From Erythrobasidium yunnanense (Eukaryota; Basidiomycota; Cystobasidiomycetes; Erythrobasidiales; Erythrobasidiaceae), in assembly GCA_001600175.1 (NCBI GenBank), contig BCJC01000009.1, positions 186,001 through 250,000 of the forward strand: DNA of 64,000 bases. The letters are read 5' to 3'. The notes below the pieces were generated by a model, which saw only the letters and a program-made list of their open reading frames with translations, was not told where the DNA came from and made no database searches. Position numbers and translations under genes: made by a program. Below, piece after piece: positions 21,634-30,440 of this stretch. Position 1 is the first letter of the stretch, and every line of letters begins with the position of its first letter.

Positions 21634-22624
21634 CCTCGTTCGAAGATGGAAGCTGAGCGAAAACAAGCGAGTTTCACAAAAGCGCTGTGGTCAACTTCCA
21701 CGTTACAACTCGTACAGCAAGATCAAGACCTCTTCTGAAGGATGAGCTGTTTATCTGAGTGGCTCAATGAGGTTAAGCGTCTCCACACTTCAATGCCCCT
21801 TGTCCCTAATCCCTTACGTAGTCGGACCTTTGTGTGTCTGTGAGACATAGCTTCAATGCCTCTTCCGCACGCTCTTACTGTTCACATCACCCCAGTCGCC
21901 CTGCCCCTGGTTTTAGCAGCCCGAAATGCCGGAAGCCTCCTTATGAGCAAATGCGACACCCGCCATGGCGCGCTCTCTCAGCGGCGGCAGCTAGATTATC
22001 CAATTGTTCAAGAACCACGTCCAACACCAACACCAAGGCTAATGACAATGACAAGTCGACAGCCCTAGTGCCACTCTATGCCCAGTCTTGTCGCTGGACT
22101 CTACGCGTTCCATGCAGCAAGACTTGTATAGGAGGTAGGCGTGCGACAAAAGGTAGCTGCCTCCCCTCTGCTTGGTGTATACAAGGACCTTGCTGATCGC
22201 TCGTGCGTAGGGTCAAGCTGTAAGCTGACCTGCTGGAGCGCTCTGCGGAGACCGCTCGCGGCTATCGAACTTTGCTTCCGGCGAGACACTACGTCAGACC
22301 ACGAGTCATATGCGTTGCATTCGAAATGCAGCAATGCTGTCAGTGGCTGCCTGAGCCTCCTTGCTGCAGTAGGCCTTTCCGCGACTTCATGCTCGCTCCT
22401 TTCCCCTTTGCCAGCAACGCTGTTGAACAATCTGACATCCTTTGGGTTCAACGTCCTACACGAGGCATCGCCCAACGACTCCCTCGCTGCGATAAAAGCC
22501 AGAGAAATCCCTCCTGCTCTCTCTCTTTCTTTCCTCCATCTCCATCACTTCTCCATCACTGACTCCAAGTACTCTCTCCAAGACTCCCATTCCATCATTA
22601 CACTTGGTCAGATCATAACGGACA
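21634..22624. other. Intergenic region of 991 bases
   Basis: This region lies between VPS24 and the first small Cys/His gene, which point away from each other. Reading frames of 100-170 codons exist on both strands but overlap one another and resemble nothing. The last 140 bases before 22625 are rich in CT tracts (CTCTCTCTTTCTTTCCTCC), which fits a core promoter and leader. Confidence 0.4.
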
Positions 22625-22924
22625 ATGCCACGCCGGAACAACACAGACTCTTCAACGACCTGTAACCACGATATGGGTTGGTACGACAATGGCTACTTTT
22701 CGAGCCATGGCAGATACGTCCAGCGATGCAAACTTTGTCGTCTTACCTATTGCGTAAACCACAAGCTACGAAGAACAAATGCAGCTGCTGACGACAGGGG
22801 TCGATGGACCTACGAGTGCGACAACTGCGGAGCACAAGTACTGAAAAAGGTACGGAGAGATCTGTACTGTGCAAGTAGCATTTCGGCTCACTCTTACCTC
22901 CGCACTCTCCTCCCTATCCAGTAA
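22625..22924 (+). CDS. Small Cys/His (zinc-ribbon-like) protein, member A
   Basis: This 75-99 residue protein is not recognised from any named family. Starting at ATG 22625 it shows ordered metal-ligand pairs: CNHDMGW, then QRCKLC, then YCVNH, then YECDNC. That is a CxH / CxxC / CxxH / CxxC order that could hold two zinc ions. A phase-0 intron (22850-22921, GTACGG...TATCCAG) sits directly before the stop codon. It is 72 bases long and has no in-frame stop, so splicing gives ...AQVLKK while retention adds 24 residues and uses the same TAA. No signal peptide or membrane segment. Its motif order is shared with the reading frames at 23557, 24806 and 27509, suggesting a local family. Nucleic-acid or protein binding is a guess. 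Confidence 0.55.
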   Translation: MPRRNNTDSSTTCNHDMGWYDNGYFSSHGRYVQRCKLCRLTYCVNHKLRRTNAAADDRGRWTYECDNCGAQVLKKVRRDLYCASSISAHSYLRTLLPIQ

Positions 22925-23556
22925 CCGAAGAACCGCGGGTTCCGTAAACTCGATCTTCTGCCACCTCTCGCGCAAGATCTACTCCCACCTGTATTCCGTA
23001 CCCCCTTATCGCACCTACCTTTCCAAAAGAAACAATGCCCGATGTTTCCCCTTTTGTCACTTTGAGGAGTCTGCAAACATTTCTGATCCCTGACGCCTGT
23101 TTGCGTGCTTGATAGTGTGCAGCAACCCTGCTTATTTGCTCTATGATCAACAGTTCTCCATGTTTGCGCTGCCAGAATGCTCGTGTTTCGTCTAGTCGAT
23201 TTCTAGTGAACAAAGTCAGGCATTTCTGCATCGCCCTCTCTTGTGCCAAGTAGTTCATCGCTTGCTGACGCTCTCCAAGCCAGGACCAGCAACGATAGCC
23301 TCAATCGAGTAAGCCATCTCGAGAGATACTAATCCGCGTTTTCCGCTTCACATCACCCCCAGCAATCTTCAGCACCTTTCTTGTACTTGTGAGGTCAGCG
23401 TACTACCCAAGACATCGCCCTTCGCTCTCCGCGGGGGTATAGAATCCAGCGCAAGCTGGTCACCTCTCTCTCTTTCTTCCCTCACACAGTTTCCAATCGC
23501 TCAAAAAGCCTCCAGCTGCTCATCTACTATTATATATCACAACGCAGAACCTGATA

Positions 23557-23762
23557 ATGCCTGGAACAAGACACCCACCCAAACGCTCATCGATGAAGAA
23601 TCAGCCGATGTGTACAGGCCCTCATGATATGCAATACGTCATTCAGGGCTACGTGGTCCAGTGCTCAAGATGTCCTTCAGATACTGCGTAAATCACGACT
23701 TACGACCAATTCCCAACAGCAGAGGCCAGTACTGTCACAACTGCCGCGCCATCTTCGAATGA
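23557..23762 (+). pseudogene. Frameshifted small Cys/His gene, member B
   Basis: From ATG 23557 the frame reads MPGTRHPPKRSSMKNQ, then CTGPHDM and VQCSRC, and hits a stop a few codons later. In the next frame the sequence continues FRYCVNHDLRPIPNSRGQYC and HNC, ending at TGA 23762. Compared with member A the two halves align with identical spacing (QRCKLCRLTYCVNH against QCSRCP-FRYCVNH) if one base is missing near 23693-23695. No usable intron bridges the gap, because the only candidate would be 28 bases and would delete the CxxC pair. It is either a young pseudogene or a one-base sequence error. A TATA-like run (TATTATATATC) lies about 20-30 bases before the ATG. Confidence 0.5.
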
Positions 23763-24805
23763 ACCACAACCCAAGTCAAATCACGGTTTGACAACCAAGC
23801 TACCCTTGTTAAACCCGATCCAACCCAAACCTGTCGACTATCGCGTACTCCGCTCTCGAAAAACGCCTTCTTACACTAGCCGACCCTTTGTTCTCTTATT
23901 TACTACCCATCTCCTGTTACCTGTTCCTCTGAATATTCTTACTTTCGGAAGCCCTCATTCATGCATCTATCTCGCTCAGGCAAGCCTGTCACGGAACCCT
24001 ATTGCTGAACTGATATGCATCGAGCTTCCAGGGCGAAGGCCACCACCACTAAGCTTATATCTGAAGCAGTTGACATGCTGATCAAACGACGGGCATTATT
24101 ATGCACCCTCTACATAATCTTACTGTCAATACCGAGTCAGTGACAAAAACATAATAAAACGACATCTGTTACCGTAGTAAGCTATCCTCGCTCTCACCTC
24201 AAGCACTGACTCCTGCACATCAATACTAGGTCGCCAACGCGCTACGTTTTTCTCGATCGACCTCCCGAATTCCCTTATGATAGGCTGCTGGTCACAAGCC
24301 TGGTCGTGATGTCGATGTCATGCAAAGTGCCAACAATTCTCACGCTATATTTGCGCAGCTCGCAGCTCAATCAACAGTAATCGCAGCGTTCAGATCGTTC
24401 GCGTTGAAACAATAGCAAGGGAACATCAATTATCTCAGGACTCTTTTATGTCCAGGCTCCGTTTAAGCTGCTCCATATGTTAGACCTCTCATATCCGAGG
24501 AAGGTACCAGGCGTCAATATCCGTCGGTGATCATTGCCGTTGAGTCAAGGCTCGCGCGAGAGTCGAGTCAGTTGTCCTACCTCAGGCATCGCCTCGCCCA
24601 CCTAAAAATTACAGCTAGAACGTCACACCCCTCTCCCCGTCTCTTTCTCTCTCTGTCCTGCTCCTACTGCCTCTCCACAAGCACCCTCGCACCTCCTGAC
24701 GTCAAAAAGCTACAATAGTAAGATCACATCGAGCGGCCAGCTTCGGGGAGAGGACCCTATAACGCCTTGCAATTGCCCGTGACTGAGCTCAGACAACCGT
24801 ACGAG
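23763..24805. other. Intergenic region of 1,043 bases
   Basis: No convincing gene lies between members B and C of the small Cys/His group. The part before 24700 ends in CT-rich tracts (CCCCGTCTCTTTCTCTCTC), much like the leaders of member A. The region is AT-richer than the gene-dense parts of the window. Confidence 0.35.
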
Positions 24806-25090
24806 ATGCCTCAAAGCCAGCAGCAGTCTAGCTCTTCCGACCGACGACATGCGGGGCGCTCGAAACGCAACAAGAAGTGCGCAGACGATAAGCATTCATG
24901 GCGCAAAGCCAAAAATACATATCCAGACAGCATGGGCAACGTCCTGTATACGTGCCGAAACTGTCCAGCCACGGCATGGTTTGGCTTTGGAGTGAGTGTG
25001 GTATTGCAGATAGCTTTTCGCAGTAGCGAGTCCTCCAAAGGCCAAAGCAGCTGACCTTCTCCTTTCTCTCGCTTCAAGAATAATGCTTGA
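24806..25090 (+). CDS. Small Cys/His protein, member C
   Basis: From ATG 24806 the protein begins with a Gln/Ser and basic stretch (MPQSQQQSSSSDRRHAGRSK) and then shows CADDKHSW and, after a spacer, YTCRNCPATAW. This resembles the first ligand pair (C-x3-H-x-W) and the last pair (Y-x-C-x2-C) of member A, with the middle pairs missing. A likely intron at 24992-25078 (GTGAGT donor, CTGAC branch-like site, pyrimidine tract, CAAG acceptor) leaves only NNA and the stop on the last exon. That intron is phase 0 and lies eight residues after the last Cys, close to the position in member A. Without splicing the frame stops at 25054. Predicted size about 66 residues. Function unknown. Confidence 0.45.
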
Positions 25091-25431
25091 AGTCATCCTG
25101 AGCGACTCCTCTTGCTGTTTTCAGGATCGACGTCTACAATCTTCCATCAAATTCCCCTTGTCGTAACCCAAGATCGTCGTGTAATGTTTCCCTCTAGCAT
25201 TCGAAGCCTTCGTTGTCATGCCCCTGCAGCATCCCGGAAATCTATGATTTCTTCTTGATGCTTGTAGCTCGACCGTACCTCCAATATACATGCGACTCTG
25301 GCGCTGTGACTTCGGCCCTGTCTCAACCGTCGCGCATGTCATGCCTACGACATCGAAAGACGCTGACGAAATAGATTATGAGTATTTGATGATGACAACG
25401 ACACGGACAAGGAAAATGAACACGAAGGCTT

Positions 25432-26777
25432 TCACGATATCCTCGCAAGCACCTCCAACACCAGCTCTTGCAAATCATTGCTAGGCCGCCAGCGTGCTAC
25501 GATATCTTCGATCGTGATGCTCGAGTCCAGCAGCTGTCGTCACGAAATGGTCAGGCTATGCTCTGACAAGCCAAAGATCGTTTCTTACCTTAGCACCTGT
25601 CACCCTCCTCCGCTCAACATCTGAGTAGATGGCAAGCGTAGCCGTCTTTCCCTCACTCAGATTATATAGAATACGTAGCTCTCCATTCGGCATGGGCTGG
25701 ATTTGCTTGATGCCCAATGTAGATTGCAGAAGAGCGCTCCTGTCCGCCAGTCTGTACATTGTATCGTTAGATGAATCCCTTGCCAGTTATAATGGGAACT
25801 ACGCACTGTCTGCACGACTCCTCAATCCTCCTGTCCTTGTTCTTGATGGCATTCCTTGCTTCAGCCTCTACTTTGTCCATTGAACTCCTCTCATGCATCA
25901 ATCGCTCTACTTCCTTCTGCTTGACGGTCAGATCCGTCTTGCTCTTCACGATGGAAGCCCTTGATTCAGATAGCGTCTGCTGCAGATTCTGCAGTGCGAC
26001 AATCTGATGATACTCACCTTATCAGGATTACGTCAGGCGATAGCACGAGATGCGAGACCGACCTGATCATCCAACGTCTGATTCGCTTCTTCTACTGTCA
26101 TCCGCTCTGCTTCTGGCCGCGAATTGCGCAGCATGGCTAGCTCTATTTCCATGTCTTGAATCTCGCGTGTCAGTGAGCGCGCCTCTTCGATAGAGGGTGT
26201 AAGGTGTTGATTAAGGTCTGCACGTGACGGTTTCAGCGCGTTTGTTGTGCAAGTACCTCCAAACGAGTTGAGCATTACCTGTGTCTATCTCCTTTGTGAT
26301 CTGTCTGATTGCATCCCTGAGCTGCTCTGCATTTGCCTTCTTCTCCTTGAGCTGAGCTTTCTTTACGACTCTCTGTTCTTCGGCGCGTTCGCAATCGCTC
26401 TGCATGACCAGTCCCTGTATGCCATCCTGATCCAGCTGTTCGCTATCTTCCAATTGTCCTAGTAGCTTCTGCAGGAATTTGCGCTTGACGTTGCTCTCCA
26501 TCCACTGAAACTTGACTTGGCCGAAGTACTGCTTGTACTGATTCAGATCTTCGGATAGCCGATGCAGGTCTGTAGGATCAACGCTGTATGTGTCGCTCAG
26601 GTTTGTGTAGCTCGTCATGTTCTCCGTCGTCGATTTGGCCAGTGAAGACTGCTGCTGCTCTTCGCGCTCGACACGCGCTTGAAGCTCATTGCGCAGAGCT
26701 ATCACATTCAGGTGGTGACTTGTAAAGCCTTCAAGGATCTCTGTCGTCGTCATCGTGCTCGCTGCAGAAATGGCCAT
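25432..26777 (-). CDS. SOS7: Sos7/Kre28 (Zwint-type) kinetochore protein, probable
   Basis: This is a coiled-coil protein with a small C-terminal globular domain. The start ATG at 26777 gives MAISAASTMTTTEI. The segment VKFQWMESNVKRKFLQKLL resembles the Sos7 family signature (a KFSYLEQ..KEKFLRAI-like block). Long heptad-rich stretches follow (EEQRVVKKAQLKEKKANAEQ, KQKEVERLMHERSSMDKVEA). The C-terminal exons read LGIKQIQPMPNGELRILYNL and LDSSITIEDIVARWRPSND, a short RWD-like layout as in kinetochore linker proteins. Sos7/Kre28 partners with Spc7/KNL1 at the outer kinetochore. The last intron (about 25520-25587) is needed to reach the stop at 25432. Other coiled-coil kinetochore subunits are an alternative. 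Confidence 0.55.
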
Positions 26778-26899
26778 GTTTTGTCGTGTCGGTTTTCGGT
26801 AAACAAACATCAAACAGTTCCGTCTCGTTCCCCCCGACTGATTCGCAAGTGACCTTGTTCTAGAGTAGCAAAAGCAAATCCACGAATAGCATTTCCCTT

Positions 26900-27217
26900 T
26901 TGCTTCTGACTCTCTCAAGCTCGAGCTTCTGGCCCTCCGTCAGCCGATTCAGCAGGCGATCACAGCATAACATACTTCCTACTGCCCTCGCACCACAGGC
27001 AAGCCAACTGCAAACGCAGGCGGTAAGCGGTGGCAGCGTGACTGGCCGGTCAACGTATCTCCACACTCTGGACCATGCTCAGGTTCTCTTGTCGCATCCA
27101 TCCTCCCCTACAGAACTGCAAGAGCTGAAAAATGCGATCGAACAGATTAAGAACGCGAATCTTAGCTATGATAGTCAAACCAAGCGTCGAGGCCTGCCTC
27201 TGGCCTCTGGCCTTTGA
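26900..27217 (+). CDS. Doubtful coding region, possible mitochondrial-type N-terminus
   Basis: An open frame without an internal ATG begins with Ser/Arg-rich residues (SVSRFSRRSQHN) and ends with a helix-like segment, TELQELKNAIEQIKNANLSY, that looks more coding than chance. An ATG at about 26770 (MAMFCRVGFR) could be spliced to it with a GTAAAC donor and a TTCTAG acceptor, but that exon overlaps the start of the SOS7-like gene on the other strand. I do not recognise the product, and it may not be a gene. Confidence 0.2.
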   Translation: MLLTLSSSSFWPSVSRFSRRSQHNILPTALAPQASQLQTQAVSGGSVTGRSTYLHTLDHAQVLLSHPSSPTELQELKNAIEQIKNANLSYDSQTKRRGLPLASGL

Positions 27218-27508
27218 TGATTCGAAGCTATGCAAGGCGAGCTTCGGGGTCGGAACGCTCAATCGCCTGCCTACATTATGCCAATTCGCGGCTATAGAAC
27301 ACTCTTATTCACCTGCGCTAGCATATTATCCCTCGAGCGTGTCTGACGATCAGCATTGCCCCATACGGTGCGTGCACTCCATGCTACAAAAGCCGACTCA
27401 AACCTCGTCACATCTGCTCACTCCTGCCCTCACACGCTTTCGACTAGTCGCCTTTCTGGTCCTTGTCCCGCACTTCGCTTCTAAATCTCTCCACCGTTCT
27501 CGCTCGCA

Positions 27509-27739
27509 ATGCCTTGCTCTCCCCGCCAGCACACTTGGATCGAGCACTCTCTCCCGATGCGATACTGGGTATGCTCAACATGTCACATCAATACGACCAT
27601 CTACTGCAACGCACATGGCCATTACCTGATTCCAGATGGACAAGGATGGTGGGAGAACGGACATTGGACTTGGCGTGTCAAATGCCGAAACGACCCGTGT
27701 ACCTACACCGCGGTACACCGTAGCCAAGTTACAGCATGA
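27509..27739 (+). CDS. Small Cys/His protein, member D
   Basis: ATG 27509 opens a 76-residue frame with the same ligand order as member A: CSPRQHTW, then WVCSTC, then IYCNAHG, a Gly/Trp-rich spacer (DGQGWWENGHW), and finally TWRVKCRNDPC. The C-x3/4-H-x-W start matches member C, and the YC-x2-H pair matches members A and B. The frame stops at 27739 if unspliced. A GT donor at 27713, five residues after the last Cys and in phase 0, could splice to CAG at 27825 and end VS-stop at 27834, which would put a near-stop intron here too. No signal peptide. The SOS7-like gene lies between it and member C. Confidence 0.5.
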   Translation: MPCSPRQHTWIEHSLPMRYWVCSTCHINTTIYCNAHGHYLIPDGQGWWENGHWTWRVKCRNDPCTYTAVHRSQVTA

Positions 27740-27834
27740 ATGCGGCCAGAAGCGGTCCCTTTGGGCCTCAAGTCGCTCACGGCTCCCAATCGAGGCACGC
27801 TATGACTTGAGGCTCTATGTTTCAGGTATCTTGA

Positions 27835-28334
27835 GTTCACCTGCTCTGTTCTTGTCAGACTTCTTTCCGCCACGTATAACGTCCTTGGATTGTTTGGCGG
27901 TATGAGCCACTCCTTCATGATCAAGCTATAACAACTTGACAGTACTGCCTTGCCTGACCAGCACCATCAAAGGGGTAGACGTACCTGCCTTGACCTTGCT
28001 GACTGCAGTCGATCGTGCTCTGTAATGCTTTGTTTCCACACTGTCTCCTACAACTTCCAGAGCAAAGCAAGACATGCTAGCGCGTAAAGGCGGTGACAGG
28101 TGATAGCAGCACCATATAGTCTGCTCTACTGAAACGGTGGCCATGATTAGCCGGCCCTCTCAAAGACTGCTCGGTCTGCTGATTACCGTTTAGTCTTTGA
28201 CCATAGCGCATACAGAGCAGCGAAACTTCCACACAAATGGCTCGTCTTTTAGAATCTTCTACATCAACTGTGACTTGCCCATTTAGCAGGTCAACAGAAG
28301 CACAATATCTGACTTTCTTTCCCCCATCCCACGT
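27835..28334. other. Intergenic region of about 500 bases
   Basis: This is the shared 3' region between member D and the convergent ammonium transporter gene. No coding or RNA-gene signal was found. Confidence 0.35.
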
Positions 28335-30440
28335 CTATACAGCACTTGAAACAACAGGCTGAACTCGACTGCCGCCCCCGTATGACTTCTCCTTACTTTC
28401 CTCGCCAGCATCAGGCGAGCTTGGCGTGCTAATCTTCTGCTCCAGATCGTCGAGGAAGGGGCTTTGCTCGTGTTCATCCGCCCACTGTCTTTCATCCATG
28501 TATTCACCGTTGCAGGCGGCGTCGATGCCTTGGTAGATCTCGTCATCGGTTGCGAGTACCTAAGAGAAAAGTCAGGCATGAACTTCGAAATTTGCGAGAA
28601 TGGCCTTACCTCGAAGCCAGGAATGCAATCTACCAGTGCGACAAGGACGTATGTGACTATGAAAGCGTATGAAGTCGTCGCTAGACAGTCTGCGACTGTT
28701 CACCGAGTCAGAAAACGTCAGACTCGCTAGAACGGCGGGAACCTTACTCTGATAGCCAATTTGTACAAAGTAACCGTCGAGCCACCCGCCAGCGATCTCA
28801 GAGATACCGTCTGTCGCTGCGATGCTCTTCTGAGCGAATATTCCCGTCAAGATGTTACCGGTGATACCGCCCGTAAGATGGCATGACGTATCGACGGGGT
28901 CCACCAAGCCTATCTTCTTCGCGATACGAGTATGCTTGAACCTGCTCGCCCAGAAGCACACGGTCCCGCCTGCCACGCCGAAGAGTAGGGAAGCTGGAAG
29001 GCCGACAAATCCGCATCCTGGGGTAATGCAAACGAGACCGCTGATAGCTCCAGAGACTACAGCGCTAACGGACCATTTGCGCGTCAGGCAGAAGTATTCC
29101 CAAAGAGACCAAGTGATGGCGCCCATACAGCCCGAGATCTGGGTCGTGGACAAAGCTACAGCGCTTCTCAAATTCAGTGAAAGCGTCGAGGCTCCATCGA
29201 ACGCTAACCATCCTGCATCACAGTAAGCATCAGGATTGATCCGAATCGTTTTGGGCTTCTTGCGAGCTTTGCTAAACGCGTTCCGCCCCAAGTCTGACTT
29301 ACCATTCCAGATTAGCACCAGAGCCAAGAAGAGCTGGAAGACGTTGTGCGGACGATGTTCTGTCATGACCCTCAGAGATCGGTGGGTGGATTTTCTAGAT
29401 CGAGCGAGCGGCTTTGACAGGTACATCCCCATAGCTATGGATCCGGCTCCGGAAGCTATATGCACCGGTGATCCGCCTGCAAAGTCGTACGCGCCAAGAG
29501 TGTACAGCCATCCTGACGATCATAGGCTTCAGTGCGGGACGACCCCAAAATCAAAAAAAGCCGAAGACTCACCAGAGCTTGACCATGTCCAGTGCGCGAC
29601 AGGGCTATGGATTAGTAGGTGCATGTACAATTAGTGAGGTCTGACACAGCGACGCATCTGCAGTGCGTACCTATTTGAAGGGAGCGCGAGTCAAGGCGAC
29701 CTTTCAGCAAAACTCACTTCATATAGATGGCCAAGGCTTGGCTTACCTGTAAACAATCAATGGCCAGATGAAGGTGATTGGAATAAGGGCTGTAAGTCGA
29801 GCTCTTTCGGCACTTCCGCCCAAGAAGATCGCCAGCGTAGCCACACTGAATACGAGCTGGAAAACACTGTAGAGTAGCGCTGGAAGTGTTCCCACTGCCT
29901 CTTCGAGAACGTCTTTGTGGCCGATATGCGAGAAGTCACCGATGAAAGAGCTTCCCTCTCCATAGGTCAGGGTAAAGCCGAAGAGCATCCAAGAGATCGA
30001 GCCGACTGTCATAGCTAGTAAGCTGACCCAAATTGGCGACAAATTGTTCCTTCTGTTCGTGTAGCCAGAGTAGAGGAGACCAATTCCGGGAATGATGGCC
30101 CAGCAGACTGGAACGGTATCTCATTAAGTACGTAAGGTGACAAATGCTGATTAGCTGATACATACAGATCGTTGCGACCTGTAGGAGATCTGGCTATCAG
30201 TATAGTTAGCATACCTGAAGATGCAGACTCACGATAATCCAGGCTGTCAAACGTAATAGTTAGATTGGCTCCAAAGCACATTTGGTCGCCGGACTTACCC
30301 ATCTGCGATGAGAATAGACAGCTCAGTATGAAAGCGACTTACAGGCTCTGCAGACTTTCACTCACATCGGCTTTATCATAGTCGGCAGCTCCAGCAGTGA
30401 AGCGGGCGATGTCTGAGGACACAGGCTCTGCATCTGCCAT
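28335..30440 (-). CDS. Ammonium transporter (Mep/Amt family)
   Basis: Mep/Amt proteins import ammonium across the plasma membrane. The start ATG at 30440 gives MADAEPVSSDIARFTAGAAD. The first membrane helix is rebuilt from three tiny exons (4, 11 and 13 bases) into DMAWIIVATIFCWAIIPGIG followed by LLYSGYTNRRNNLSPIWVSL. The pore signatures are present: AYDFAGGSPVHIASGAGS with the first pore His (about 29461) and DPVDTSCHLTGGITGN with the second (about 28880). The middle has SLWEYFCLTRKWS and TPGCGFVG. The hydrophilic C-tail from about 28570 (DERQWADEHEQSP) carries Ser/Pro-rich sites. About ten exons. Its promoter region is shared with the divergent asparaginase and is full of GATA sites, suggesting nitrogen catabolite control. 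Confidence 0.93.

Follow-up and report, generated by a model that had tools for sequence, protein, structure and literature searches.

Three of the four short Cys/His-rich open frames that lie between positions 22625 and 27739 of the window (the whole 64,000-nucleotide stretch of Erythrobasidium yunnanense DNA analysed here) may best be read as old tandem duplicates of a single gene encoding a small, putatively zinc-binding protein, with the first copy (A) intact, the second (B) frameshifted and the third (C) reduced to one motif unit, while the fourth frame (D) is not supported as one of them; we give this reading a probability of roughly 45%. The frames are as follows:

22625..22849, + strand: member A, coding part, 75 aa, with all four Cys/His pairs (sequence and motif count)
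23557..23691, + strand: member B, first piece, with the first two Cys/His pairs (shuffle test against A)
23628..23762, + strand: member B, second piece, in another frame, with the last two pairs (shuffle test against A)
24806..24991, + strand: member C, 62 aa ahead of a candidate intron, one unit only (sequence and profiles)
27509..27739, + strand: frame D, 76 aa, with four Cys/His pairs (motif count; kinship to A–C unsupported)

The sequence-only reading had placed four open frames with starts at 22625, 23557, 24806 and 27509, all on the plus strand, and that is where they lie. A and D have all four Cys/His pairs in the order it described, and each of the four members closes its series of pairs with C-x(2-4)-C. 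Its description needs amending in places: the first C...H pair of A is present, but its spacing is C-x-H rather than C-x(2-4)-H, and the two pairs kept by C are one C...H pair plus one C-x2-C pair, C having no second pair. B is frameshifted as had been claimed, with pairs 1 and 2 in the open frame 23443–23691 and pairs 3 and 4 in the different frame 23628–23762; the second piece resembles A in its later part only (YC-x2-H, from 23682 on). The net charges of A, C and D are +6, +8 and +2, respectively.

A, B and C have DNA in common upstream of their start codons. In each of the comparisons A-B, A-C and B-C, none of 1000 shuffles reaches the observed score. When overlapping 300-base windows cut from the same sequence, 1213 in all, were used as controls, none reached the score of another A-B-C member with the upstream DNA of A or B as the query, and with that of C as the query two reached A's score and two reached B's. 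The control that comes highest for C lies at 14.8 kb and is a CT-rich leader. A possible fifth member at 14.7–15.1 kb, raised by its upstream score, was rejected as the CT-rich leader of another frame that has no motif. The A-B upstream alignment has a blastn E value of 9e-5 within a 7.3 kb region, and all three upstream regions contain a common box:

22448..22536, + strand: upstream DNA of A that aligns with 23395–23483 upstream of B (71% identity)
22453..22472, + strand: upstream box of A, pattern CTACNNNAGNCATCGCC
23400..23419, + strand: upstream box of B, pattern CTACNNNAGNCATCGCC
24574..24593, + strand: upstream box of C, pattern CTACNNNAGNCATCGCC

This pattern was built from the A, B and C sites themselves, and its exact matches in the window are three, only those upstream of A, B and C; when up to two mismatches are allowed there are six matches against 1.69 expected. 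A separate 33-base stretch is 73% alike between 24735–24767 (about 40 bases upstream of the start of C) and 27236–27268 (about 240 bases upstream of that of D), a two-copy match that may be due to chance.

The protein comparisons point the same way for A, B and C, with uneven strength. The score of A against the second piece of B was reached by none of 5000 shuffles, that of A against the first piece of B by two and that of A against C by nine, and for C against the two pieces of B the resemblance is weak, with 684 and 115 of 5000 shuffles scoring as well. Leave-one-out profiles, whose alignment was anchored by hand on the Cys/His pairs, were searched against the 1985 open frames of the window; C, the second piece of B and A each came top among the frames outside the training set, at weak E values of 0.033, 0.021 and 0.17, respectively, and a profile of A and B alone ranks C first (E 0.0077). 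Among the five profiles, the first piece of B ranks 49th and 545th in two that were trained with it and 95th in one made without B, and these ranks show that the first half of the protein is poorly modelled by the profiles. The upstream DNA, the box, the protein similarity and the duplication scar described below show A, B and C to be a local family related by common descent.

The clearest mark of segmental duplication at this locus, and one that the sequence-only reading had missed, is a decayed copy of part of a neighbouring gene. The stretch had been called gene-poor, which is not simply so, since a sos7-like gene on the minus strand occupies about 25435–26780 between C and D; a Sos7 kinetochore domain was found in the upstream part of this gene (Pfam, E 1.4e-9). 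The features concerned are these:

about 25435–26780, - strand: sos7-like gene, between C and D (Sos7 Pfam match in the upstream part; exons by eye)
25435..25536, - strand: last exon of the sos7-like gene, from which the scar derives (exon joins by eye)
24180..24260, - strand: decayed copy of the sos7-like last exon, between B and C (tblastn and blastn)

The copy at 24180–24260 and the last exon are 70% identical over 27 residues (tblastn, E 4e-8) and, as DNA, 75% identical over 77 nt. A tblastn search for the sos7 tail after A gave chance-level rows only (E 13 and 19). No transposon ends were found in 22000–28400, where there are only three imperfect inverted pairs of 18–19 nt. The simplest history would be one in which a segment made up of the small gene and the tail of its convergent sos7-like neighbour was copied, leaving B plus the tail on one side and C plus sos7 on the other.

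A and C may also share the position of an intron close to the end of the coding region:

22850..22924, + strand: candidate phase-0 intron of A at 22850–22921 (GTACGG...CAG, with a CTCAC branch-like site), with the stop codon directly after it
24992..25090, + strand: candidate phase-0 intron of C at 24992–25078 (GTGAGT...CTGAC...AG), followed by the last codons to the stop

These candidate introns are 72 (A) and 87 (C) bases long and lie 7 and 9 residues past the last Cys. The signals of the C intron fit a strict pattern that was found four times on both strands of the window; those of the A intron fit only a loose pattern with 153 occurrences on both strands, and because that pattern is so common the A intron is far from certain. 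By eye, D also has a possible GT...AG intron at 27713–27794, placed like those of A and C. Such introns, together with the Sos7 match, would be in keeping with a fungal source. The view that the frames are old tandem copies stands for A, B and C, given their upstream DNA, matching candidate introns and duplicated sos7 fragment, but is not supported for D.

The four pairs may be two successive units of the form C-x(1-4)-H ... [Y/W] ... C-x(2-4)-C, of which C would keep one, an arrangement that is weakly supported. Units 1 and 2 resemble each other in A, where 19 of 2000 free shuffles reach their score and 108 of 2000 do so if C and H stay fixed, but not in B (194 of 2000; 533 with C and H fixed) or in D (1202 of 2000; 1289 with C and H fixed). 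A predicted structure of A, built from an alignment in which the first piece of B is out of register, has a mean pLDDT of 56.7, which is low confidence, and places strands next to the Cys/His pairs; the model of D (mean pLDDT 42.7) is too poor to use. Foldseek returned 280 matches to the A model up to E 10, none of them at 0.001 or better, and SH3 domains (E 0.78) lead the best 50 of these 280.

The claim that these proteins belong to no named family agrees with our searches, in which nothing was above the curated cut-off in Pfam or NCBIfam and the PHROGs and PDB sequence matches were weak. The best PHROGs matches (A, E 0.056; D, E 0.08) are to families without known function; the best PDB sequence match of A (E 0.011) is to a flagellin-hook protein over 17 residues, with D at E 0.18 and the four-row alignment at E 0.42; and in NCBIfam a Csc2 model matches C and a deacylase model matches the first piece of B, both below threshold (12 bits against a cut-off of 38 and 11.6 bits against one of 252, respectively). 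The ESCO-type zinc finger (PF13878) overlaps the core of A by 15 residues, at 13.5 bits against a cut-off of 27 and with nothing listed for the B pieces, C or D. In A, C and D the ligand pairs are about 13–22 residues apart as in a zinc ribbon, and the low-confidence A model has strands, but the first pair is C...H, the spacing is variable and there was no significant profile or structure match. Fungal small secreted cysteine-rich proteins are small, Cys-rich, tandem and fast changing, and A–C are like them in these respects but have zinc-type Cys/His pairs and, by eye, no hydrophobic N-terminal leader; the N-termini look polar, which would make classical secretion unlikely. Pattern stretches in prokaryote genome contigs (83 for A) yielded none confirmed as a relative, and those in viral contigs (13 for A and 4 for D) yielded no relative. 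Matches to D in a Verrucomicrobia MAG and in Comamonas testosteroni cover 24 and 13 query residues (D 38–61 and 41–53), include no complete Cys/His pair and were taken as chance. Rfam (at gathering cut-offs) and ARAGORN gave no matches. The want of named relatives is a poor guide to how far the family may be distributed.

Frame D had been counted as a homologous fourth member, and its kinship to A–C is not supported by its profile ranks or its marginal upstream DNA. Profiles built without D miss it, placing it 371st of 1820 rows (E 130) with A+B+C and 71st of 1803 rows (E 20) with A+B, although the A+B+C profile also misses the first piece of B, one of its own training rows, so the silence on D is not a strong test. 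Shuffles put D against C (581 of 5000) and against the two B pieces (2541 and 660 of 5000) at or near chance, and the score of A against D, reached by 60 of 5000, comes from an alignment that is out of motif register; MAFFT alignment of A with D also leaves the pairs of D out of register, and a trimmed set moved the later pairs closer. Nonetheless, we would give somewhat less than even odds to the substantial possibility that all four frames form a single family marked by the ordered set of pairs, in which D, beyond the sos7-like gene, would be the most diverged copy. D has in common with A–C its strand, its ATGCC start and its order of pairs, all four of which it keeps; when its upstream scores against the three members are added up, 6 of the 1213 controls attain the sum, and its upstream match to B is reached by 4 of 1000 shuffles. 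Against this, the A-D and C-D upstream scores are reached by 279 and 170 of 1000 shuffles, and some control promoters score as high owing to CT-rich runs. In comparisons with B, A and C, D's upstream DNA is equalled or surpassed by 4, 101 and 53 of the 1213 overlapping controls, respectively. D would be either a copy of much greater age or a small frame rich in Cys and His that has no relation to A–C.

A different and tentative reading, credible although somewhat improbable, treats the locus as a graveyard in which A, B and C (and D) are relics of a once larger gene or family and encode no working protein now. B is frameshifted, C is minus half the motif and the sos7 copy is decayed, and codon use does not support coding: among the 360 open frames of 60–110 aa in the window, 277, 62 and 341 equal or exceed A, C and D, respectively, in codon score, and 97, 93 and 157 do so when only synonymous codon choice is scored, a measure by which the first piece of B alone stands out (9 of 360 as high). 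In five A-B blocks, selected for likeness, 11 of 29 codons are identical, 9 have synonymous differences and 9 have other differences, and two A-C blocks have 4 synonymous and 8 other differences; these values show neither constraint nor diversifying pressure. The diversifying pressure proposed by the sequence-only reading is not borne out, as relaxed constraint accounts no less well for one frameshifted copy and one halved copy, which would seem to point to it. On the other side, none of the eight ligands is missing from the open frames of A and D, and the box persists upstream of three copies. The ordinary codon scores of A, C and D would also suit a very improbable alternative, that these are chance frames in non-coding DNA with a coincidental Cys/His pattern. 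Open frames with a single unit do arise at random: the window has 8, including 4 unrelated ones, where random windows average 1.79 and have up to 7, and in 100 random windows there are 24 frames in which the unit starts at least twice, overlapping starts included. The whole order of pairs is another matter, since it occurs in two frames of 45 aa or more in the window (A and D, less than 5 kb apart) and once in 300 random windows generated by a first-order Markov model, a contrast that is flattering in that the expression was composed after the motif had been seen, and the residues common to A and B exceed chance. It is also rather unlikely that the protein is an AN1-like cross-braced zinc finger, in which pairs 1+3 and 2+4 would each hold a zinc. 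A has the core C-x2-C-x4-YC-x2-H, and its residues 33–49 match the core of the AN1 profile (PF01428; E 0.028). However, the match covers 17 residues and scores 15 bits against a cut-off of 27.9, and the profile lists no match for the B pieces, C or D. The AN1 pattern has eight ligands ending in H-x-C, where A has a last pair C-x(2-4)-C; the spacing on either side of the core exceeds that of AN1, and C is without the second pair.

In the reading that we prefer, with A, B and C as tandem copies and D apart, the ancestral small gene would have had a TATA-like box, a pyrimidine-rich leader, a short frame starting M-P and a candidate intron near its end (as in A and C). Segmental duplication enlarged the family, and in the B/C step, if in no other, the convergent sos7-like tail was copied along; A has stayed intact, B is frameshifted and C has shrunk to one unit. 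The duplication, the upstream DNA in common and the frameshift are seen directly, whereas zinc, fold, cell location and role are inferred. The product, with no hydrophobic leader, would be a small, basic, intracellular zinc-binding protein, most likely made of beta-hairpin units, one or two in number, of the pattern C-x(1-4)-H ... [Y/W] ... C-x(2-4)-C, which would hold one zinc each and may serve as a minimal binding surface for a nucleic acid or protein partner. A bolder version, which we regard as unlikely, would see here a minimal zinc-binding module of a new kind, about 20–32 residues long and repeatable, in which a hairpin lies between C-x(1-4)-H and C-x(2-4)-C. Singly or in pairs, such modules would make up a lineage-specific family of tiny fungal proteins of the nucleus or cytosol whose genes have a regulatory box in common and whose copies lose or keep entire units.

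A, B and C are likely a small zinc-binding family in birth-and-death turnover, and the locus looks like an ordinary case of local gene family birth and decay. If A is expressed and conserved, this would be a small orphan family caught in the middle of that process, with intact, frameshifted and halved copies side by side and a readable scar of the duplication; it would overturn nothing, and it would be a useful case of how tiny zinc-binding orphans arise.
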